From Mesorhizobium sp. B1-1-8 (GTDB taxonomy: Bacteria; Pseudomonadota; Alphaproteobacteria; Rhizobiales; Rhizobiaceae), in the NCBI RefSeq assembly GCF_006442795.2, contig NZ_CP083956.1, positions 1,961,501-2,025,500 on the forward strand: a DNA stretch of 64,000 bases. The letters run 5' to 3'. The notes below the pieces were generated by a model, which ran no database searches, had not been told where the DNA came from, and saw nothing but the letters and a program-made list of their open reading frames with translations. This document shows positions 21,294 through 32,066 of this stretch, piece after piece (the stretch's first letter is position 1; each line of letters begins with the position of its first letter). The translations under genes and the position numbers were made by a program.

Positions 21294-21935
21294 ATGTCAA
21301 AACCCGCCAATCAGCCGAGCCGCGCGCTGATCGTCGTCGATGTCCAGAACGACTATGACGGCGGCAACCTCGCCATCCAGCATCCGCCCTTCCGCGACAG
21401 CGTCGTCAACGTGGCGCGCGCCATGGATGCCGCCGCCGAGGCCGGCATCAAGATTGTCGTCGTCAAGCAGATGGCGCCTGAGACCTCACCGATCTTCGCC
21501 AAAGGCAGCCATGGCGGCGAGTTGCATCCCGAGATCGCCAGGCGTAGCCGCGATCACTACGTGGAGAAAATGCTGCCCTCCGCCTTCACCGGCACCGACT
21601 TAGAAGAGTGGCTGCGCGCCAATGCCATCGATACGATCGCGGTGGTCGGCTATATGACGCATAATTGCGATCTTTCGACCATCATCCATGCCGTGCATAT
21701 GGGCTTCGCGGTCGAGTTCCTGTCCGATGCGAGCGGCTCGGTGCCTTATGCCAACAGCGCCGGCTATGCCTCGGCCGAGGAGATCCACCGCGTGGTGAGC
21801 ATAGTCCTGCAATCGCGCTTCGCCGCGGTTCTGAAGACGGCCGACTGGATCGATTGCCTGAAGACCGGCGCCTTGCCGGAACGCGACACGATCTATGCCT
21901 CGAACCAACGGGCGCTGGCGCGAAGCGCCGCCTAG
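21294..21935 (+). CDS. isochorismatase-family cysteine hydrolase
   Basis: A 213-residue cysteine hydrolase. The catalytic triad is visible as the aspartate in VVDVQNDYDGG, the lysine in IVVVKQMAPE, and the cysteine in VGYMTHNCDLST, with the usual cis-peptide loop before it. Such enzymes cleave amide or vinyl-ether bonds (nicotinamide, ureido, isochorismate). The substrate is unknown. AAGGA lies 8 bases before the ATG. Divergence from a GlxA-type regulator suggests ligand-induced expression. Confidence 0.88.
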   Translation: MSKPANQPSRALIVVDVQNDYDGGNLAIQHPPFRDSVVNVARAMDAAAEAGIKIVVVKQMAPETSPIFAKGSHGGELHPEIARRSRDHYVEKMLPSAFTGTDLEEWLRANAIDTIAVVGYMTHNCDLSTIIHAVHMGFAVEFLSDASGSVPYANSAGYASAEEIHRVVSIVLQSRFAAVLKTADWIDCLKTGALPERDTIYASNQRALARSAA

Positions 21936-21955
21936 ACCGGAGCTATGTGAACGAC

Positions 21956-21985
21956 AAGAGGCGCCAAAGCGATGCGGCGCCTCTT
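21956..21985 (+). terminator. hairpin after the isochorismatase-family gene
   Basis: AAGAGGCGCC and GGCGCCTCTT form a perfect 10-bp stem with a 10-base loop, 20 bases after the stop codon. The tail GTTGTGGT is only weakly T-rich. The convergent fhs gene has its own hairpin at 22045-22070. Confidence 0.65.
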
Positions 21986-22044
21986 GTTGTGGTATGAGAC
22001 AAGTTCGGTTCCTCGGCGGCGGCTTGAGGAATCCGGGCAAGCAA

Positions 22045-22070
22045 AAGGCGCCGCAGCAGTGCGGCGCCTT
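22045..22070 (-). terminator. intrinsic terminator of fhs
   Basis: On the minus strand AAGGCGCCGC pairs perfectly with GCGGCGCCTT around a 6-base loop, followed by TTGCTTG. It begins 24 bases after the fhs stop. The stem arms share GGCGCC with the neighbouring hairpin. Confidence 0.75.
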
Positions 22071-22094
22071 GGTCATTCTCAGCTCGAAGAATGT

Positions 22095-23774
22095 TTAGAA
22101 CAACCCTTCGATCTGGCCGGCCTCGTTCAAGAAGATCTTTTCCGAAGACGGCGCCTTGGGCAGGCCCGGCATGGTCATGATCTCGCCGCAGATGATGACG
22201 ACGAAGCCGGCGCCTGCCGAAAGCCTGACTTCCCGCACCGGCACGGTGTGGCCGGTCGGCGCGCCGCGCAGGTTCGGGTCGGTCGAGAAGGAATACTGCG
22301 TCTTGGCCATGCACACCGGCAGGTTGCCATAGCCTGCCTCTTCCCAGGCATGCAACTGGTCGCGGACCGACTTGTCAGCGATCGCTTCGTCGCCGCGGTA
22401 GATGCGCTTGACGATGGTGTTGACCTTCTCGAACAGTGGCATGGCGTCGGGGTAGAGCGGCGCGAACTGCGAGGCGCCGGATTCGGCCAGCGCCACCACC
22501 TTGTTGGCGAGATCCTCGATGCCGGCCGAGCCCTTGGCCCAGTGTTTGCACAGGATCGCCTCTTCGCCCATCGAGGCGACATAGTCCTTCATCGCCTGGA
22601 TTTCGGCGTCGGTGTCGGAATAGAAGTGGTTGATGGCGACCACCGCCGGCACGCCGAACTGGCGGATGTTTTCGATGTGGCGGCCAAGGTTGGCGCAGCC
22701 CTTCTTGACCGCCTCGATGTTCTCCTTGCCGAGATCTTCCTTCTTGACGCCGCCATTCATCTTCATGGCGCGCACGGTGGCGACGATGACGGCCGCTGCC
22801 GGCTTCAGGCCGGCCTTGCGGCACTTGATGTCGAAGAATTTTTCAGCTCCAAGGTCGGCACCGAAGCCGGCTTCGGTGACGACGTAATCGGCGAGCTTCA
22901 GCGCCGTCGTGGTGGCAACAACCGAGTTGCAGCCATGCGCGATGTTGGCGAACGGGCCGCCATGCACGAAGGCCGGGTTGTTCTCCAGCGTCTGCACCAG
23001 ATTGGGCTGCATGGCGTCCTTGAGCAGCACCGCCATGGCGCCGTCGGCCTTGAGGTCGCGGGCATAGACCGGCGACTTGTCGCGGCGGTAGGCGACGATG
23101 ATGTCGCCGAGGCGCTTCTCGAGGTCCTTGAGGTCGGTGGCGAGGCACAGGATCGCCATCACTTCCGAGGCGACGGTGATATCGAAGCCGGCCTCGCGCG
23201 GAAAGCCGTTGGCGACACCACCGAGCGAGGCGATGATCTCGCGCAGCGCGCGGTCGTTCATGTCCATGACGCGCCGCCAGACGACACGGCGGGTGTCGAT
23301 GCCGAGCTCATTGCCCCAGTAAATGTGGTTATCGATCAGCGCCGAGAGCAGGTTATGGGCGGTGGTGATAGCGTGGAAGTCGCCCGTGAAATGGAGGTTC
23401 ATGTCGTCCATTGGCACGACCTGGGCCAACCCGCCGCCGGCCGCGCCGCCCTTCATGCCGAAATTCGGGCCGAGCGAGGCTTCGCGGATGCACACGATCG
23501 CCTTCTTGCCGATGCGGTTCAAACCGTCGCCGAGGCCGACCGTGGTGGTCGTCTTGCCTTCGCCGGCCGGCGTCGGGTTGATGGCGGTGACGAGGATCAG
23601 CTTGCCGTCCTTGTTGCCCTTCACAGATTTGATGAACTCGGCCGAGACCTTCGCCTTATCGTGGCCATAGGGCAGCAGGTGCTCGTACGGGATGCCGATC
23701 TTGGCGCCGATCTCCTGGATCGGTTTCTTCCTGGCTGCGCGCGCGATCTCGATGTCGGACTTCACTTCGGCCAT
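22095..23774 (-). CDS. fhs: formate--tetrahydrofolate ligase
   Basis: A 559-residue ATP-dependent enzyme joining formate and tetrahydrofolate to 10-formyl-tetrahydrofolate, feeding purine and one-carbon metabolism in the cytoplasm. The length fits the family. The nucleotide loop is [20 protein letters not shown], followed by [19 protein letters not shown], both characteristic. The C-terminal part includes [16 protein letters not shown]. The gene is monocistronic, with a strong hairpin behind it. Confidence 0.97.
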
Positions 23775-24087
23775 GACGGCTTTCCTCTGGATTGGGCGGT
23801 GGAGGGTTCGATTATTTGTGCATGTTCGAGGCGCCGCGCGGACGCAAGGTCACGTTCTAACCCTGTCGCTGCCGCGGCGTCAACTTTCATGCAACTATGT
23901 TTCCTGTTAAGAAAGAATATTGCTGCTTCCCGGTCGAGCCTTCCCGGGTCTTTTTCGCCCGGTTCGTTGCGCCGTATAGAAGCCAGAGCGGATGCCGTTC
24001 CGCCGTCTCAAAACAGCCGCTGAATACGCGAAAAACGACAGAAGCGACGGCGCAAATCCACCATTGCCCGACTGCCGGCAGCCGACG
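23775..24087. other. intergenic region upstream of fhs
   Basis: A 313-base gap between fhs and the DUF2333 gene, both on the minus strand. It must hold the fhs promoter and the end of the five-gene operon. Short open frames on both strands have no good ribosome binding sites and no recognisable product. I see no clear terminator, RNA gene or repeat. Confidence 0.6.
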
Positions 24088-25218
24088 CTACTGGCTCAGC
24101 ACGTTGCTGATCTCGACCATGTTGGAGCGCACGCGCAGCACGTAGAAGCCCATCGTCGTCAGATGCGTCGGCAGCAGCCAGCCGTCCTCGCGGCCATTGG
24201 CGATGATGAAGGGCTGGATGCGCAGCGCCGAGACGAATTGCGCATCCATCGTGTCCCACAGATTCTGCAGGTGCTTTTCCTTGATCACGCCCTCAAAGTC
24301 GGCCTGAGCGCCCTTCATGAGCCCGTAATAGGCATAGAGCTGGCCGTAGGCGAACCAGAAGCGGTCGTCGGCGCGGAAATCGAACCAGCCGTCATTGTGG
24401 TTCTCGGCGCGCTCCTTGAGGATGGCGGATGTCGAGCCGATGTCGCTGGCGATGCGGTCGATATACTGCTTCAGATTGTCGGCGCGGGCGTCGAATGTCG
24501 TCTGGCATGCGGCCAACCGGGCGTTGAAGGAACGCAGATTGCCGACCGCGCGACGATACATGCTTGGCGTCGTCGCGGTCATGCCGTTGCGGCTGATGTA
24601 CCAGATGGATTCGTCGTATTGCAGCTGACCACGGGCATCCTGGAGATTGCTATCGATCTGCGAGGTGGTGCGCACACGGCCGAGATTGTCGGCAAGCTCG
24701 GTCGCGGTGCGGCGCACCGCCTGGTTGATGCCGCGCTGGAAGGAGGCCTTGTTGTCCATCCACGGCGTGTTGTCCCAGTCGATACCGAACAGGCCGAGCT
24801 TGTAGAGGACCATCGAGGAGACCCAGGCATTCTGGTTGACGTTGAAGTCGGTCAGGTCCGCGGCCACCTGGGCGATGCCGGAATTGCCGCAGGTCCTCGC
24901 CGTATTGGTGCTGGCGCCCGCGGAGACCTGCTCGCCGGCAGAAACGTTGCGCTTCTCGAAAGTGTATTTGTCGGGGTAGTTCGGGTCGAAATTGTTCCAC
25001 CACTGCGTAGCGTAGAAGAAGTTGGCATAGAGGCCGATCAGCACCAGCAAGGCGAGGCCGACCGCCGCCTTGAGGATCCAGCCGCGCTGCCCATACCAGC
25101 GGCCGACCCACATGAACGGCCACAGGATGATGCCGACGACGAAGCCGATCCCGCGGCCGATCCATTGGAAAATCCAGGTGAAGAAATTCACGACAGGATC
25201 TAGCATGGCTCTCGTCAC
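24088..25218 (-). CDS. DUF2333 family membrane-anchored protein
   Basis: A 376-residue protein. The N-terminus has a hydrophobic, aromatic-rich stretch (8-38) and one firm membrane helix (about 48-68, AAVGLALLVLIGLYANFFYA). The rest is an all-alpha periplasmic or cytoplasmic domain with WDNTPWMDNKASFQRGIN and a FRADDRFWFAYGQLYAYYG block, as in DUF2333. Function unknown. It is the last gene of a five-gene operon, 3 bases after the preceding gene, and could anchor that system to the inner membrane. Confidence 0.82.
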   Translation of the reverse strand: MTRAMLDPVVNFFTWIFQWIGRGIGFVVGIILWPFMWVGRWYGQRGWILKAAVGLALLVLIGLYANFFYATQWWNNFDPNYPDKYTFEKRNVSAGEQVSAGASTNTARTCGNSGIAQVAADLTDFNVNQNAWVSSMVLYKLGLFGIDWDNTPWMDNKASFQRGINQAVRRTATELADNLGRVRTTSQIDSNLQDARGQLQYDESIWYISRNGMTATTPSMYRRAVGNLRSFNARLAACQTTFDARADNLKQYIDRIASDIGSTSAILKERAENHNDGWFDFRADDRFWFAYGQLYAYYGLMKGAQADFEGVIKEKHLQNLWDTMDAQFVSALRIQPFIIANGREDGWLLPTHLTTMGFYVLRVRSNMVEISNVLSQ

Positions 25219-25221
25219 CCC

Positions 25222-26520
25222 TCAGTCAGTCAAGCCGTAAAGGCGCGTGCGGAACGCCACCTTGTCCTTCAAATATGTGGTTTTCAGAACGTCCACAACA
25301 TGCGATCGCCAGGCGTCGCTGTAGCTGTCATAGTCCTTGTAGAAGCCCGGTTTGTTGAAGACGTAGCGCGACACGAAGTCCTGCGGCACGAAATCCGAGA
25401 TCAACTGGTTGGTCAGCCAGGCGTCGGGATGGTCGGGCTTGCCGCGCACGACCAGGAAGCGCTGGGGCGGCGCTACGTCCTCGATCTTGAGATGGCCATA
25501 TTGAGCGATTTCGCGCTTGGCGGCGTTGAGGAAGGGGAAATTGCCGTCCCTGGCGATCAGGTCGGCATGGCCAAGGATCCAGGTCTGCAGCCAGACCTTG
25601 TCGACGTCGGTCAGGTTGCGGTTCGGTTCGGCATCGCGGATCAGCGCGCGCACCACCATTTCGGCGCGATGTTCGAGATAGCCGGAGGCTTCGATCCAGG
25701 AGGCGCGAGGCAGTTCGATGCGGCCGGTAGCGGCGAGGAATTTGAACACCTTGTCGGCATCATTGATCGAGAGATAGCTCACCTGCCAGGGCCGAGAGCG
25801 GCGGAAGCCGGGGGCGGCCGGATCGCTGATCACCGTCGTCATGCCGGGATCCACGAACACGTAGAGCCCGCCGAAATGGCTGGTCCAGTAGGCATTGTGG
25901 CGAAAGATCACCTGGTCGGGCACCAGCGCGTTCTCACGGATGTCGCCGCAGACCTTGGCGAGATCGACCATGTGCTGCAGCATGGCGCTGTCGCGCCATG
26001 CGTCGGGCTCCTGTTTCAGCCGGTCGACCAGCTTGCCGAGCTCGGCCGCCTTGCCGAGCACGTCCTCGGCCGACAGCACCTTGAATTCGACCTGGCTGAT
26101 CGACAGCAAATCCTCGATGTCGTTGACCTTCGGAACCGAGTCCTCGATCTCGCCGTAGATAACGTCCTTGATGGTCAACGCGTCGATGGCGCGCTGGTTC
26201 TTGGACATGAACTCGAACATCAGCTGCGAGGTGTTGGAGAAGGCGGTGTGAACCACCGGCAGGTCGACCTGAGATGGCGTCAGGATGATGAAGCGGCGAT
26301 TGACTTCGTTCGGATCGAGATAGTCGTAGTCGCCGCACTCCTCGGCGATCTCGGGCGAAAAGCCGGTGCGGTCGATCTGGAAGCTTCTCAACTTGGTGGG
26401 ATTGAGACCGAAGGCTGCAAGCGCCTTGTTGTAGCGCTGGATGAGATGCGGCTCGTCCACAGTGAGTAGCCGGCCGTAGATCAGCTCGTTGTCGCGCAGA
26501 AGGTCGGGTTTTTTAATCAC
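25222..26520 (-). CDS. unknown operon protein (probably DUF6638 family)
   Basis: A 432-residue soluble protein with no signal peptide or membrane helix. It starts VIKKPDLLRDNELIYGRLL and contains the blocks RFIILTPSQVDLPVVHTAFS and HNAYWTSHFGGLYVFVDPG. I believe it is the family named DUF6638, but cannot check. The GTG at 26520 is taken as start because GGGGAG lies 8 bases upstream; that ribosome site is the outer arm of a palindromic repeat. A longer frame from 26682 only translates the repeat. Fourth gene of the operon. Confidence 0.8.
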   Translation of the reverse strand: MIKKPDLLRDNELIYGRLLTVDEPHLIQRYNKALAAFGLNPTKLRSFQIDRTGFSPEIAEECGDYDYLDPNEVNRRFIILTPSQVDLPVVHTAFSNTSQLMFEFMSKNQRAIDALTIKDVIYGEIEDSVPKVNDIEDLLSISQVEFKVLSAEDVLGKAAELGKLVDRLKQEPDAWRDSAMLQHMVDLAKVCGDIRENALVPDQVIFRHNAYWTSHFGGLYVFVDPGMTTVISDPAAPGFRRSRPWQVSYLSINDADKVFKFLAATGRIELPRASWIEASGYLEHRAEMVVRALIRDAEPNRNLTDVDKVWLQTWILGHADLIARDGNFPFLNAAKREIAQYGHLKIEDVAPPQRFLVVRGKPDHPDAWLTNQLISDFVPQDFVSRYVFNKPGFYKDYDSYSDAWRSHVVDVLKTTYLKDKVAFRTRLYGLTD

Positions 26521-26524
26521 TATT

Positions 26525-26550
26525 CCTTCTCCCCGTTCACGGGGAGAAGG
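26525..26550. repeat. 11-bp palindrome whose arm provides the downstream ribosome binding site
   Basis: CCTTCTCCCCG and CGGGGAGAAGG flank a 4-base loop. On the minus strand the second arm ends 4 bases before the GTG start at 26520 and contains the GGGGAG that acts as Shine-Dalgarno. If the hairpin forms in mRNA, that site would be hidden. Confidence 0.85.
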
Positions 26551-26580
26551 TGCCCGAAGTGCGGATGAGGGGCGGGGCAG

Positions 26581-26735
26581 CCTTCCCTTCTCCCCTTGTG
26601 GGAGAAGGTGGATCGGCGCGATAGCGCCGAGCCGGATGAGGGGTGTTCCAGCGGAGTGAAACGCTGGAGTTCCCTGGAGCACCCCTCATCCGTCGCCTTC
26701 GGCGACACCTTCTCCCGCAAGGGGAGAAGGGAAGG
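26581..26735. repeat. 155-bp near-palindromic intergenic element
   Basis: The outer 30 bases at 26581-26610 are inverted at 26706-26735 with one mismatch (arms start CCTTCCCTTCTCCCCTTG). An inner CGGATGAGGGGTG is inverted as CACCCCTCATCCG. The motifs resemble the palindromic intergenic mosaic repeats of rhizobia (RIME/ABC-type). Together with 26525-26550 it fills the gap between the third and fourth genes of the operon. Confidence 0.88.
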
Positions 26736-26745
26736 TCGGCGCAGC

Positions 26746-28656
26746 TCACGCATTCCACAGCCCCTTCTTCTTCAACTCCTCCATTTCGCGCGCCGCACGC
26801 TCGCGCAGGCGCGCATCCCGTAGCAGCTTCTCCACGGCTGCGTCATCGGACTTGTCGGAATACCGGAACTCGGAATCGGCGTATCGGTTGATCTCCTGCA
26901 TGACCATATCCATCGAGAACGGTCCGCGCAGTTCCTCGATCATCGCCTTCTTGTCATCGTAGCTCTTGTGCATGAAGGCGTCCGGCTTCTCGAACCAGTC
27001 GTCCGGCAGCTCGACGTCCATGGCGCGCATTTTTATCGCGTCGGTGACATTCTTGATGGCGCGGCCGGTGAAGCGGGGCTCGGCATCCTTGATCATGTGC
27101 AGATAGGTGCCAATGTCGGCCATGGTCTTGGGCTGGCCGTTCTCCTTCATGTAGCGCTCATAGACCCTCACCAGGCCGTCTTCCCGCGGCTTCTCGTGCT
27201 CTTCATAGGCTTCCGTCACTGCGCGCTGGATCTCCTGCGCGGCGTAAACTGCGTGGTCGCCGAGCGGTATCTTGTGGTTCTTGCCGGCAAGCAGGACGAA
27301 GATGTCGATGTAGTCGTCGCGGCTCTGCGGGCCGTCGACCAGCCAGCGGGCACCGGCGCGCTGGCGCAGCGCATCGTCGACGTTTTCGGGGTAATTGGAA
27401 AACATGCCGAACGAGCAGTTGCCGCGCACCACGGTGGAAGCGCCGGCGAAGGCGTCCATCAGCACGCCGGTGATCTCCTGCTGGCCGGCGGACGCACGAT
27501 CGTCCGAACGGCGCGCCGCCACCTGGTCGATGTCGTCGATGGTGCCGAAGCCGATGGCGCGCGGATTGAGCACGTTGTTGATGAACTGGCGGCAGTTCTG
27601 GCCGGACTTGCCCTGGTAGGACGAGATCTGGTCGACGCCGAAATTCTCATAGGCGAAGGGATAGCCGGCGACCTGGCAATAGCCGTTGAGGAGGCCGGCG
27701 ATCATCTGGATCAGCGTCGTCTTGCCGGTGCCTGGCGCGCCGTCGCCGATGAAGGTGAAGAGGAAGCCGCCGAGTTCGACGAATGGGTTCAGCTCGCGCT
27801 CGAAATCATAAGCCATCAGCATTTTCGCCAGCTTGATGGACTGGTATTTGGCGATGTGGTTGCCGACCACCTCTTCCGGCGTCTTGAAGGTCATCACCAG
27901 CGGCTTGGCGCGCTTGCCGGGCGCGACGTCGAAGCCGTCGAGGGTGAAGTCGTCGACATTGATGCGGATATGGGCGTTCTCGAACGGGCCGATGCCGTCG
28001 AAGCGGCCCTTGCGCGCCAACAGCCCGTCGATGGCGACGCGGGCAAAGGCGCGCGCCCTGGTCATCAGGTCGGCGTCGTCTTTCGAACCGGCGATCGCCT
28101 TGTCGAGGCCGGCGACGACCGACTTCACCGCATCCTGCGGTGTGTCGAACAGGAAATCGGGCTCGGGGATGTCGTTGGGTGCCTCACCGTCGCTGTCGAT
28201 CAACTGGAACAGATAGGAGGCGAAGCTGAAGGCGGAAACGTAAGCCGAGGCCGACAAAAGCTTCTTGAAGGTTGCTGCCTCATCGCCTTCGAGCGGAGCA
28301 CGGACATTCTTCGCCTGCAGGCTTTCGAGGTCCGAGCCCTCGGCAAAGACATCCGAGATCGCCAGCGCGATCGCCAAGCCGCGCCGGGCGCGGAACAAAA
28401 GCGTATGCTGCGGAATGCTCATCAGCTGGTCGTCGGGATGGATCGCCGCGACCGTCTTCGTCAGCTCGACCTCGCGGGTGCGGCGCACGGAGCCGACCGA
28501 AACGGTCGAGACGAAGCGACGGTTGGTGCCGGCCAGCGCGGTGCCGGATTCGCGTGCCGGATCTTCCACCACGATGATGCGGGTGATGAAGCTCTGCGCA
28601 ACGGCGCGGTGCTTTTCGATTGCTGCTTCCGAGATCGTGGTCAGGCCGGTATCCAT
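26746..28656 (-). CDS. AAA family ATPase of the five-gene operon
   Basis: A 636-residue protein with one AAA ATPase module in its second half: Walker A GDGAPGTGKT (about 304-313), Walker B IGFGTIDDID (about 368-377), then RSDDRASAGQQEITGVLMDA and an NYPENVDDALRQRAGARW arginine-finger-like region. The first 290 residues are a unique helical domain (VEDPARESGT, RARRGLAIALAISDVFAEG). The C-terminus is a charged helix (RLRERAAREMEELKKKGL). It probably remodels a partner protein; the operon neighbours are the obvious partners. Start ATG at 28656, 24 bases after the preceding stop. Confidence 0.88.
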   Translation of the reverse strand: MDTGLTTISEAAIEKHRAVAQSFITRIIVVEDPARESGTALAGTNRRFVSTVSVGSVRRTREVELTKTVAAIHPDDQLMSIPQHTLLFRARRGLAIALAISDVFAEGSDLESLQAKNVRAPLEGDEAATFKKLLSASAYVSAFSFASYLFQLIDSDGEAPNDIPEPDFLFDTPQDAVKSVVAGLDKAIAGSKDDADLMTRARAFARVAIDGLLARKGRFDGIGPFENAHIRINVDDFTLDGFDVAPGKRAKPLVMTFKTPEEVVGNHIAKYQSIKLAKMLMAYDFERELNPFVELGGFLFTFIGDGAPGTGKTTLIQMIAGLLNGYCQVAGYPFAYENFGVDQISSYQGKSGQNCRQFINNVLNPRAIGFGTIDDIDQVAARRSDDRASAGQQEITGVLMDAFAGASTVVRGNCSFGMFSNYPENVDDALRQRAGARWLVDGPQSRDDYIDIFVLLAGKNHKIPLGDHAVYAAQEIQRAVTEAYEEHEKPREDGLVRVYERYMKENGQPKTMADIGTYLHMIKDAEPRFTGRAIKNVTDAIKMRAMDVELPDDWFEKPDAFMHKSYDDKKAMIEELRGPFSMDMVMQEINRYADSEFRYSDKSDDAAVEKLLRDARLRERAAREMEELKKKGLWNA

Positions 28657-28680
28657 GAAGGATGCTCCGCGGTTTGACGG

Positions 28681-29829
28681 TCACACATCGCTGATGACCT
28701 GCCCCTTGGACAGGATGTGGACCTTGTAGCCGGAAAAGATCTTCTGCGCTTCGCCCTCGGCATAGAGCGCCTGGTAGGCCTCATGCGGGATCAGCGCGTG
28801 GTTCTCGTAGCTCGACACACCCTGGCGCGCCGCTTCGAGATCGTCGGTGTTGATGAAGAATTCCTGCGTCGTCTTCTCGCTGGAGAACAGGCCCTTGCGG
28901 CCAGGCTTCTCGCTCTTGGAATAGACTTCCTGAATGGTCCAGGTGAGCAGCCAGGCATTCTCCGGCTTGCGCACCTTGGCCAGAACCTCGGTCACCGTCG
29001 AATTGTTTTCGGTGATGCCGGCTGAATAGAACGGGCCAAGCACGACGCGGCGAAGCTGTTTCGGGTGCAGCGGCTCGAAATCCTTGTCGAGGTTGACCGC
29101 GATGGTCACCGGCGACAGCGTGTAGGCGGAATTCTTCTCCGTGAAATCGTCGAAACGATGCGCAAGCTCGGGATTGAGCAGGCCATCCACTGGGAGCGGG
29201 ATGTCGACTCGGTCGCTGAGCTTGCCGGTGTTGCCGTCGACGAGCTGGCGCACCATGCTCTCGGAGGAGTCCTCCACCGTCACCATGTAGACGAGCGGCA
29301 GGTTGGCGCTGCCGTCGAACGAGGCCCAGTGGACGAGGTAATAAGGTCGCATGGTCTTGGGATTGACCGAGACCTTCGCCGTCTGCGCCAGGATGAAGGG
29401 GCCGAAGGTCGCCTCGCTCCTGACGTCTTCCAGATAGAGCCGCTCGGCCATCGACTTCTGCAGCGCGTCGGGAAATTCCTTGTGGCGCAGTATGAAGTCG
29501 GCCATCTCCTCGCGCAGTTCATCCGCCTGCGGGATGTTGGCCAGCCGCGCCTCGGCCTGCCGGCGGTCGTTCTCCAGTTCAAGCAGGTTCTGGAACACCG
29601 GATAGCCGCTGTCGGCGCGCGATATGCGAAACGTGTCCATGAAGCCGAGACGGTTGCGCCAGCAGGCAAAGGACGTGTCCAGCCGGGCGATGTATTCGGC
29701 GACGATCCTGGCGACGATGCCGTGCCGGTAGAGTGGCGAGCGGTCGTCGCGCATGAACACTTCGAGCCCGCTCAGCGCCGCCGTGATGGCGGAAAAATAG
29801 CGCACCGCCGCATCGTTTTCGGGGGTCAT
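28681..29829 (-). CDS. unknown operon protein (probably DUF6384 family)
   Basis: A 382-residue protein without signal peptide or membrane helix. The first 150 residues are helical (IVARIVAEYIARLDTSFACW, NDRRQAEARLANIPQADELR); the rest is predicted beta-rich, with ILAQTAKVSVNPKTMRPYYL and a repeated Asp/Asn/Ser pattern. I believe this is DUF6384 but am not sure. It is the second gene, 24 bases after the coiled-coil gene and 24 before the ATPase. Confidence 0.78.
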   Translation of the reverse strand: MTPENDAAVRYFSAITAALSGLEVFMRDDRSPLYRHGIVARIVAEYIARLDTSFACWRNRLGFMDTFRISRADSGYPVFQNLLELENDRRQAEARLANIPQADELREEMADFILRHKEFPDALQKSMAERLYLEDVRSEATFGPFILAQTAKVSVNPKTMRPYYLVHWASFDGSANLPLVYMVTVEDSSESMVRQLVDGNTGKLSDRVDIPLPVDGLLNPELAHRFDDFTEKNSAYTLSPVTIAVNLDKDFEPLHPKQLRRVVLGPFYSAGITENNSTVTEVLAKVRKPENAWLLTWTIQEVYSKSEKPGRKGLFSSEKTTQEFFINTDDLEAARQGVSSYENHALIPHEAYQALYAEGEAQKIFSGYKVHILSKGQVISDV

Positions 29830-29853
29830 GCCTATGTGCCCGTGTGCAGCCGT

Positions 29854-30942
29854 TTACGACTGCACGTAGTTCGCCGAATTATGCTTCTTCATCACCTCGT
29901 CGAAGCGGCGCGCGAAGGCGTCGTCGGCAAGCTTCTTGCGGCGCTGGATGTCGGCGCTGGCGACCATGTTCTTCTCGTGCATTTCGAGCAGGTCGCCGAT
30001 GTGCTTCTGCGAGGCGGCGCCGATGCCGGCCATGGTTTCCTCGGCGGTGTTGTCGACCTGGCTGCCCAGCGTGTTGATCTTGTGGGCGACATCCTGCTGG
30101 GCGGCGGTCTTCAGCGAGTCTTCCAGCGCTTTGTAGAGAACGATGCGCTGCTCGGTGTCGATGGTCAGCTTGTTGATCAGCGTCGATTGCGCGGCGATCT
30201 GGTTGTTGAGCGAATCGACGAACGTCTGGAACATCGAGGTGTAGCGCTCCAGCGTCTGGCTTTCGGCCAGCAATTCCTGCTCCTTGGCCTGTTTCTCGTT
30301 GTATTCGGTCGCCATTTTCGAGCGCTGGCCTTCGAGCTCGGTGCGCTCCTTCTGGGTGGTCGAGGCGGCGATCCTGTTCTCGATGTCGAGCAGCTGCGGG
30401 TTGAGTTCCTCGATGCGCTTCTGCACGGCTTCGAGGTTGGACATGGTCGCTTTGCGCCGTTCGATGACCTGCGACAGGCTGGCCTCAGAGGTCTTGTAGC
30501 GCTGGTCGAGGATCTGCTTTTGCGCTTTGAGGATGCCGACGATGGTGTCGGATTTCGCCAGGAGCTCCTGCAGATTGCCGGCCAGCGACATGTTGCGCAC
30601 GCGATCGGTGCGCATGCGCTGCTTGCGTTGCGCCGAAAAGACGCCGACGAAGTTTTCCCAGCCGGTATAGTTCTTCATGCTCTCGAATTCGGCGCCGAAG
30701 ACGTTGGTGGCGTCCTCAAGCCCGATGATAAGGTCGGCGATGTTGCCTTCCATCACCTTCTGCTGCTTCAGCACGTCCTCGATGCGGGCGTTCTCGATGT
30801 CGAAATTGGCGTCGCCGATCTTCTTGTCGGCCTGGGCGAGCGTGTCGAGCACGGTACCGGACTGCTCGATCTTGGTGCGCATATCCTGCACAACCTGCCT
30901 GGTCTTGGCAATTTCGGCATCGAAATTCTGCAATGTCGCCAT
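29854..30942 (-). CDS. long coiled-coil protein, first gene of the five-gene operon
   Basis: A 362-residue, almost entirely helical protein rich in Glu, Lys, Gln and Ala with heptad-like spacing from residue 1 to about 310 (for example EAVQKRIEELNPQLLDIENR). No cysteine, signal peptide or membrane helix is seen. The pattern recalls PspA/IM30- or TelA-like filament or scaffold proteins, but I see no diagnostic motif. ATG at 30942 has GGGAGG 6 bases upstream; the longer frame from 30978 has none. It leads the operon. Confidence 0.82.
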   Translation of the reverse strand: MATLQNFDAEIAKTRQVVQDMRTKIEQSGTVLDTLAQADKKIGDANFDIENARIEDVLKQQKVMEGNIADLIIGLEDATNVFGAEFESMKNYTGWENFVGVFSAQRKQRMRTDRVRNMSLAGNLQELLAKSDTIVGILKAQKQILDQRYKTSEASLSQVIERRKATMSNLEAVQKRIEELNPQLLDIENRIAASTTQKERTELEGQRSKMATEYNEKQAKEQELLAESQTLERYTSMFQTFVDSLNNQIAAQSTLINKLTIDTEQRIVLYKALEDSLKTAAQQDVAHKINTLGSQVDNTAEETMAGIGAASQKHIGDLLEMHEKNMVASADIQRRKKLADDAFARRFDEVMKKHNSANYVQS

Positions 30943-31113
30943 AGGGGCCTCCCGCATCGGCATCCGGTTTCGTCGCACGTGGCGGGGAATATATGTGGGG
31001 CTTCAAGGGATTGAAAGACGGAAGACAAGAGCGGACGCCAAAACAAAAGAATTGGCTGGGCTCTTGAAAGTCGAGCGAACCATACTCACGGCGTGAATAA
31101 AGCGCATTGCATT

Positions 31114-31125
31114 TAAAGATCTTTA
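31114..31125. promoter_or_regulatory. AT-rich 12-bp palindrome upstream of the five-gene operon
   Basis: TAAAGATCTTTA is a perfect palindrome in an AT-rich patch, unusual for this GC-rich sequence, about 170 bases upstream of the coiled-coil gene and about 100 after the tdk stop. It could be an operator for the operon. No clear promoter hexamers with good spacing were found beside it. Confidence 0.3.
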
Positions 31126-31224
31126 GGCAACAACCCTTAAGCTCTTGTTTTTGCGCATCCTATCGCTCGGAGCGGCCGCAGATTAGAACAGGCGAAGCTT
31201 GCCAGGCGGGCGAGGGTTCCTGTC

Positions 31225-31836
31225 TCAGGCGCGGACAAAACCGATAAAGTCATCGGGCGCGGCCCTGCCCATTTCCTCCTCCCAGTGCTGGCGGCAGAGC
31301 GAGACATAGACGTCCTTGCCGATCGCCACCTGCTCGCCCTGCCGCGCGACCTTGCCGTCGGGACCGAGGCGCACCACCATCGTGGCCTTGCGGCCGCAGC
31401 GGCAGATGGTGCGCACCTCGCGCAGGTCGTCGGCAATGGCGAGCAGCGCGCGCGAGCCTGGAAACAGCTTGCCCTGGAAATCGGTGCGCAGGCCGTAGCA
31501 CATCACCGGTATGTTCAGCCGGTCGGCGATGCGGGCAAGCTGCCAGACCTGCTCTTCTTCTAGGAACTGCGCCTCGTCGACGAAAATGCAATGCACGGTC
31601 TGGTGCCGATGGTGCTCGGCGACGCGGGCGAAGAGGTCGTCGCCGTCGCGAAACATCTCGGCCTCGGAGCTCAGGCCGATGCGCGACGAGATCAGCCCCT
31701 TGTCGCCCCTGCGGTAGTGGCCGGCCACGAACAGCATCGTCGTCATGCCGCGTTCGCGATAATTGTAGGACGCCTGCAACAGCATCGTCGTCTTGCCGGC
31801 GTTCATTGTCGCGTAGTTGAAGTATAGCTTGGCCAT
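31225..31836 (-). CDS. tdk: thymidine kinase
   Basis: A 203-residue type II thymidine kinase that phosphorylates thymidine to dTMP in the salvage pathway. The P-loop is YATMNAGKTTMLLQ, the Walker B-like segment is FVDEAQFL, and the zinc lasso cysteines are in ICRCGRKA and SLCRQHW. Length is normal. The ATG is preceded by AAAGGG. The gene stands alone. Confidence 0.96.
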   Translation of the reverse strand: MAKLYFNYATMNAGKTTMLLQASYNYRERGMTTMLFVAGHYRRGDKGLISSRIGLSSEAEMFRDGDDLFARVAEHHRHQTVHCIFVDEAQFLEEEQVWQLARIADRLNIPVMCYGLRTDFQGKLFPGSRALLAIADDLREVRTICRCGRKATMVVRLGPDGKVARQGEQVAIGKDVYVSLCRQHWEEEMGRAAPDDFIGFVRA

Positions 31837-32066
31837 GGCCCTTTAAGCCGACTTGCAGAGGCGCGGGAAAGGGGGCGCAGGCTCCGTCCACTAGAAAAGC
31901 GGTCCAGCTTAAAAGCGGCGGCATGTCGCTGAATGGCCAGTGCGCGCCGTTGATCGTGATGGGGAACCGCTTGAAACCACATCAAAATGGTGTTTGGCTC
32001 ACGAAACAAGGCGGGCGCAAGAACCGTGACTTCGCTTTGCCGCAAAATTGAAATGGGAGAAAGTTC

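Follow-up and report, generated by a model that had tools for sequence, protein, structure and literature searches.

Organization of the locus

The stretch of DNA analysed here, which we call the window, comprises 64,000 nucleotides of the Mesorhizobium sp. B1-1-8 genome (6.19 Mb; contig NZ_CP083956.1, positions 1,961,501 to 2,025,500). Five consecutive genes on its minus strand encode a coiled-coil protein, a protein that matches no family, an AAA ATPase, a DUF6638 protein and a DUF2333 membrane protein. An earlier note, made from the sequence, had described them as an operon, and the reading of open reading frames (ORFs) in the window bears out its coordinates and the gaps of 24, 24, 225 and 3 bases between the genes. 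Existing annotations give the members of the operon no more specific names than domain of unknown function, ATP-binding protein or hypothetical protein. The five genes form a real, conserved gene system, on the best reading dispensable and largely vertical in its descent. The features concerned are the following (window positions):

29854-30942, minus strand: gene 1, coiled-coil protein, 362 residues; without a Pfam family; the most conserved component
30064-30156, minus strand: gene 1 residues 263-293, the top-conserved motif; mostly lost in remnants without genes 2-4
28681-29829, minus strand: gene 2, 382 residues; no Pfam match; helical N-terminal part and beta-rich domain
26746-28656, minus strand: gene 3, AAA ATPase, 636 residues, with a family-specific N-terminal region; PF00004, 2.8e-11
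27718-27747, minus strand: gene 3 Walker A, GDGAPGTGKT, residues 304-313, from the alignments
27610-27618, minus strand: gene 3 aromatic position Y347-Q348-G349, presumed pore loop 1, aligned to the i-AAA protease region
25222-26520, minus strand: gene 4, DUF6638 protein, 432 residues from a GTG start; PF20343, 4.6e-69
24088-25218, minus strand: gene 5, DUF2333 membrane protein, 376 residues from a GTG start (likelier start, ATG at 25206); PF10095, 1.2e-21

Co-inheritance of the genes

A scan of contigs gave at least 369 relatives of the AAA protein, of which the best 80, all close relatives, were taken as named loci. All five genes are colinear on one strand in 72 of these 80, and the other eight run off the end of their sequence; the five-gene arrangement is far beyond chance. 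The coiled coil has the highest identity to its window counterpart among the five genes in 70 of the 72 loci, with a median of about 81%, compared with less than 76% for the AAA protein.

Colinearity was counted in the named loci; the family-wide figures that follow record presence only. Among 151 genomes of the window's family, presumably Rhizobiaceae, the AAA profile is matched in 89, the coiled-coil profile in 94 and the DUF2333 profile in 114. All 89 genomes with the AAA gene (its match in G492 is partial) have a strong coiled-coil match, split over two contigs in G533, and a DUF2333 match, cut at a contig end in G614. No full-length coiled-coil match was found in the AAA-less genomes of this set: four of the five extra matches are partial (G043, G107, G525, G605), and the fifth (G497), which lies in a 1623-codon frame, is probably spurious. 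DUF2333 can be separated from the rest: G527 and G531, for example, have it on a different contig, and in G511 and G555 the distance is 10-20 kb. Across 199 genomes of the phylum, DUF6638 is present in 18 and the AAA gene in 18, and these are the same 18 genomes. Genes 1-4 are a co-inherited unit, and within the family every sampled genome bearing the AAA gene also has DUF2333. Families that seldom occur together would have refuted the earlier note; in the window's family, co-occurrence is near perfect.

A constant soluble core with changing membrane partners

Twelve distant loci, ten from a scan of the phylum and two from a scan of the class, all keep the order coiled coil, gene 2, AAA, DUF6638. 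The DUF2333 profile has no match in these twelve. The core is instead followed in all twelve by members of one protein cluster, and in 11 of the 12 by a protein of about 89 residues. Three members of the first cluster were compared with Pfam and match DUF1523 (E-values of 1.4e-64, 3.5e-67 and 2e-44). In the one locus checked, the DUF1523-type protein and the small protein have two hydrophobic stretches each. The core is also recognizable in G878, a distant genome (coiled coil, E = 4.8e-13; gene 2, 4.5e-7; AAA, 2.1e-60; DUF6638, 6.9e-51), where two other proteins with hydrophobic stretches come after it. In Vibrio vulnificus the four core genes are followed by mfd, and the nearest membrane gene seen, DUF3592, lies past mfd on the opposite strand. 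What stays constant is a soluble core of four genes; its membrane partner varies by lineage. A search for DUF1523 in the window's own genome gave no match, nor did it in the control genomes, so that absence is not shown by it.

The AAA gene was also seen on very large Vibrio plasmids, one of V. vulnificus (0.93 Mb), in which the mfd directly after the core (L140) is plasmid-borne, and three of V. parahaemolyticus (0.88-0.94 Mb). Ten plasmid records contain a match; these replicons measure 0.88-4.6 Mb and are classed as non-mobilizable.

Probable natural deletions of the core

Some genomes carry DUF2333 without the AAA gene. A set of 23 such loci was assembled from 22 loci of the family (without G585, G588 and G623) and one Rhizobium leguminosarum plasmid record, and gene 2, AAA and DUF6638 have no match near DUF2333 in any of the 23 (stretches of 6.8-20 kb). 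A diverged coiled coil remains in six of them, in the space from tdk (thymidine kinase) to DUF2333. Five others (L185, L186, L187, L190, L192) have tdk no more than 300 bases from DUF2333. In L186 (genome G516), DUF2333 is read as two pieces and looks broken.

A quick tree was built from 58 DUF2333 proteins. Of these, 36 come from genomes that have the AAA gene, chosen by hand to give a spread of those available, and 22 from genomes that lack it; one broken DUF2333 was excluded, and 12 of the 55 inner branches are open. The AAA-gene state changes at least 12 times on this tree. Losses and gains are not separated by it; in favour of repeated loss are the common position and the remnants of the coiled coil. 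In normal proteins, region 263-293 has a mean identity of 0.77, the highest of gene 1. In the six remnants the same region is 47% gapped and keeps 18% of its invariant residues, whereas from residue 43 onwards the remaining regions keep 29-50%.

The component proteins

Gene 3 matches the AAA family (PF00004, 44.4 bits against a cut-off of 21.2). The earlier note had called it an AAA ATPase with a private N-terminal domain; the first part stands and the second does not, relatives elsewhere aligning at or near full length. An alignment of 15 proteins, the window protein included, shows conservation of Walker A, of Walker B (D-D-I-D in the window), of the aromatic pore-loop position and of N421 and R431/R433/R437; an aromatic residue and glycine are found at the pore-loop position in all 15. 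We take the Y347-Q348-G349 region to be pore loop 1; Walker A, pore loop, sensor-1 Asn and arginine finger are the usual names of such motifs. Among solved structures the AAA domain matches the i-AAA protease best (1.2e-4), the two aligning over the ATPase core, and then, weakly (0.017 and above), proteasomal Rpt2. Glutamate is the usual residue at the catalytic position of Walker B and is present in the i-AAA protease, whereas aspartate (D375) takes its place in 15 of the 15 aligned proteins. Gene 3 has no hydrophobic stretch and no MIT domain in Pfam. Judged by its motifs, the protein appears to be equipped as a substrate-threading AAA motor.

The AAA protein of G878 is identical over 99% to one from a Gammaproteobacteria bacterium, and a search with this G878 protein, which concerns the AAA protein only, gave relatives named from Desulfobacteraceae, Candidatus Moduliflexus and Woesearchaeota. 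A second AAA group (P0323-P0360), mostly of about 600 residues, was also seen. Several of its members are 32-35% identical over 85-93% of the query, others match about half of it, and the three that were aligned share the motor signature.

Gene 1 has only a chance-level Pfam match, with no family past its cut-off, and no hydrophobic stretch. Its structural model (mean pLDDT, the predicted local distance difference test score, of 73) contains long helices at 120-193 and 197-295 and may form a syntaxin-like bundle. Its fold matches stand close to the background level that helical bundles give, a best Z of about 14 being typical of mostly helical models that lack a clear match. No ESCRT-III fold is among the 50 rows listed in the structure comparison, and neither Snf7 nor PspA is matched in Pfam by the window protein (E <= 1) or by three relatives (E <= 10). 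A sequence search of solved structures gave no convincing relative.

The proposal of the earlier note that gene 2 is DUF6384 is unsupported. For the window protein Pfam lists no family up to E = 1. Three relatives were examined at E <= 10: two are without any match and the third has only a weak one, to another family; DUF6384 is listed for none of them. The model of gene 2 (mean pLDDT 90.7) has no Foldseek match at E <= 0.001; in a structure comparison its C-terminal domain bears a weak resemblance to the T-fold. Gene 4 is DUF6638, as the earlier note had believed, well past the curated Pfam cut-off (233.8 bits against 27). Homology between gene 2 and DUF6638 was considered, and a comparison found none. 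Neither protein has a hydrophobic stretch or, by sequence, a convincing relative among solved structures.

Gene 5 is DUF2333 (77.4 bits against a cut-off of 22), with one firm hydrophobic stretch at 47-65 and a marginal one at 20-38, in agreement with the single firm membrane helix assigned to it before. Most aligned DUF2333 relatives begin with MLDP, which favours ATG 25206 as the start; the final gap would then be 15 bases. Two cysteines are both present in 11 of 13 aligned proteins and both absent in the other two. A sequence search of solved structures gave no convincing relative. Copies elsewhere lie near sigma/anti-sigma genes, in Skermanella and on a Rhodobacteraceae plasmid. In Skermanella DUF2333 also adjoins a YqhA-family gene, and in Rhizobium leguminosarum a TIGR00645-family gene stands at a distance of about 3.5 kb from it (L142, L143); the two families presumably correspond. 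A duf2333 gene near an orphan hcp locus of the type VI secretion system, of a family called uncharacterised, is mentioned in an excerpt of PMC5256989.

Intergenic element, cargo and flanking genes

26581-26735, no strand: dispersed paired-palindrome intergenic element between genes 3 and 4, from a repeat search
31225-31836, minus strand: flanking thymidine kinase gene (tdk), a frequent upstream neighbour; Pfam and neighbourhood count
22095-23774, minus strand: flanking formate-tetrahydrofolate ligase gene (fhs), a frequent downstream neighbour; Pfam and neighbourhood count

The 225-base gap between genes 3 and 4 does contain a repeat, as had been noted. An inverted repeat of 30 nucleotides lies in it, its arms 95 nucleotides apart; described as palindromes, the pair has a spacing of about 120 bases. 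At up to 2 mismatches the genome has 60 copies of the half-site, compared with 0 for a reversed-pattern control, which marks it as a dispersed intergenic element outside the gene system. The sequence GGAGAAGG stands right after the palindromes, ahead of the DUF6638 GTG start, and may be the ribosome-binding site of that gene.

The gap between AAA and DUF6638 exceeds 350 bases in 32 of the 72 complete loci. In Sinorhizobium meliloti the cargo comprises an annotated endonuclease-domain gene and an insertion sequence. Cargo recurs in this gap, and also between gene 2 and AAA and between the coiled coil and gene 2 (L038-L116). Endonuclease-domain genes are part of it and, judged by eye, so are PIN-domain, Fic, phospholipase-D-like, P-loop and toxin-antitoxin-like genes in relatives. 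We read the inserted genes as tolerated cargo; alternatively, they could be a sign of a conflict-prone neighbourhood.

In the window the operon sits between tdk and fhs. Among loci with room for the count, tdk is found at most 2 kb upstream in 47 of 75 and fhs at most 3 kb downstream in 52 of 66, both on the strand of the operon. The S. meliloti record has the operon between choXWV-tdk and fhs-extensin-haem receptor genes. Positions 21900-32000 gave no Rfam match, the promoter scan found 0 sites with 1.3 expected, and the terminator scan found 9 with 6.3 expected.

Proposed function and alternative explanations

The reading that we favour, at a probability of roughly 0.45, is that of a cytoplasmic AAA complex, so far uncharacterised, which acts as a remodeller, works with a membrane partner that differs between lineages and has an envelope-associated role. 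That the proteins form a physical complex is likely, since the genes are colinear in every complete close locus, recognizable in distant Gammaproteobacteria, and, in the case of genes 2-4, jointly missing in 23 loci. The AAA protein would form a ring and, using ATP, thread or pull apart a substrate by means of its aromatic pore loops. The likeliest substrate or regulated scaffold would be the coiled coil, which may be engaged at the 263-293 motif and the C-terminal tail: it is the most conserved partner (70 of 72 loci), and the motif decays most when genes 2-4 are gone. The gene 2 protein and DUF6638 could act as adaptors or ring caps. DUF2333, with its membrane span and probably a periplasmic domain, may anchor the complex or sense at the inner membrane, and in other lineages the DUF1523-type protein and the small two-helix protein would fill its place. 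A role at the membrane is suggested by the hydrophobic stretches and co-varying cysteines of DUF2333 and by the DUF1523-type and two-helix proteins of the distant loci. The purpose would probably be envelope-associated maintenance or a stress response rather than defence, which is the least certain step of the scheme.

The earlier note had spoken of a membrane-tethered remodelling machine. Scaffold and motor fit this description, and the tether is well founded only for part of the distribution; membrane remodelling itself and the cellular role are what we infer. The scaffold-plus-motor reading is reasonable, now with a candidate contact motif at residues 263-293.

Several observations weigh against our reading. 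The coiled-coil model is of moderate confidence, with fold matches near the helical-bundle background, and the remnant coiled coils diverge along their whole length, so the motif is singled out by degree only. Aspartate at the catalytic Walker B position means that hydrolysis could be slow. Not every lineage has a membrane tie: in Vibrio, neither of the two genes that precede the core has a hydrophobic stretch. Outside the family the system is sparse: one class scan found it in 7 of 289 genomes (the class of the window), the other in 2 of 276 (the class of G050, by its members the Gammaproteobacteria). DUF2333 occurs without the AAA gene in 25 of 114 family genomes and, being found also without the core and near sigma/anti-sigma genes, may have a separate job.

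Literature searches found no description of the operon, the other thing that would have refuted the earlier note, and no experiment on the function of these proteins. Nothing was found on DUF6638, DUF6384, PF20343, PF19911, PF10095 or PF07509 by name, nor anything joining DUF2333 with anti-phage systems, AAA ATPases and coiled coils; by title and abstract, nothing relevant was found on TelA/XpaC with AAA. Some hints come from excerpts of published sources. A fragment inside SMc02733 is among 27 from a gel-shift screen with ChvI of S. meliloti (excerpt of PMC3687685), and shmR is SMc02726 (excerpt of PMC8343143); counting genes from shmR, SMc02733 would be the AAA gene, under a mapping between strains that we infer and offer as a lead only. 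A DUF1523 protein appears in a table for ModA16-ON Haemophilus (excerpt of PMC10783040). The literature and the sigma/anti-sigma neighbours together lean to envelope or stress biology.

The main competitor is a cytoplasmic quality-control or chaperone complex, in which the gene 2 protein and DUF6638 deliver clients to the AAA ring, the coiled coil serves as a rod and the membrane genes are mere neighbours. The four soluble genes are the constant part of the system, no membrane gene lies directly beside the Vibrio core, and the best structure match of the AAA protein is the i-AAA protease, then weakly proteasomal Rpt2; all of this would suit such a complex. However, all 89 family genomes with AAA also have DUF2333, a DUF1523-type membrane protein comes after the core in each of the 12 distant loci, and no protease gene belongs to the unit among the loci examined; we consider this explanation rather unlikely. 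A cycle resembling NSF/SNARE or Vps4/ESCRT-III, in which the coiled coil would assemble at the inner membrane and be dismantled by the AAA protein, draws on the possible syntaxin-like bundle in the model of gene 1. It seems improbable, given that mostly helical models with no clear match typically reach a Z of about 14 anyway, that the coiled coil has no Snf7 or PspA match in Pfam and that the AAA protein has no MIT domain.

Of the explanations considered we give least credence to an anti-phage or conflict system, with an AAA sensor or effector and accessory proteins patchily kept and lost. The earlier note had held defence to be as likely as a housekeeping role, and in its favour are the patchy presence (at least 12 changes on the tree, sparse in the class scans) and, in relatives, genes picked up in the intergenic spaces, one with an endonuclease domain and others that by eye resemble toxin-antitoxin or Fic genes. 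PADLOC gives weak matches of the AAA domain to TRIP13 (3.5e-4) and IetA (3.6e-4), but these cover a partial AAA domain only, the coiled coil reaches E = 0.13 at best and genes 2, 4 and 5 match nothing. The high conservation of the coiled coil (about 81% median identity, where AAA is below 76%) and the mostly shared chromosomal neighbourhood (tdk 47/75, fhs 52/66) also argue for a role other than defence. Two queries found no relative in phage records or in viral contigs, scans of the latter being pre-selected by short patterns. Defence seems less likely than the even weighing of the earlier note would have it.

A broader proposal, which we hold to be doubtful, is that the favoured complex belongs to a widespread, undescribed class of AAA machines reaching to Desulfobacteraceae, Candidatus Moduliflexus and Woesearchaeota (to which the AAA protein alone has been traced), with a fixed core and interchangeable membrane partners, and would be a prokaryotic counterpart of NSF/SNARE or Vps4/ESCRT-III. 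The core would then consist of an AAA protein with a D-D Walker B, a coiled-coil client and two adaptor families, one perhaps a T-fold ring capping the motor. 

The gene system itself would give DUF2333, DUF1523 and DUF6638 a context. With a nameable motor, a likely client and a candidate contact motif, function becomes testable in symbionts such as Sinorhizobium meliloti, and genomes that lack only the core are natural controls.

Comparison with known systems

TelA (PF05816) is helical and, judged by inspection, similar in length to gene 1. As a relative of gene 1 it was rejected, PF05816 being absent from the Pfam lists of the window protein and three relatives; hhalign gave a probability of only 0.5% against a TelA of the same genus, whose profile had only 3 similar sequences. 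A true TelA gene lies elsewhere in the window genome (G000:C1:3982714-3983703; L137), and one was found in 3 of 21 genomes searched, the window genome included. Gene 2 recalls, weakly, the T-fold proteins urate oxidase, dihydroneopterin aldolase, QueF and GTP cyclohydrolase I.

Classical AAA ATPases (PF00004), such as the i-AAA protease and katanin, align with gene 3 at Walker A, the aromatic-x-Gly of the pore loop, the sensor-1 Asn and the arginine-finger region. Gene 3 differs from them in the aspartate at the catalytic Walker B position, and its N-terminal region and partner genes are unlike those of any matched member. In NSF/SNARE and Vps4/ESCRT-III an AAA motor dismantles a helical assembly. 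The window system departs from these in the missing Snf7, PspA and MIT matches, whereas the logic of dismantling would be common to them; the model of gene 1 may have a syntaxin-like bundle.

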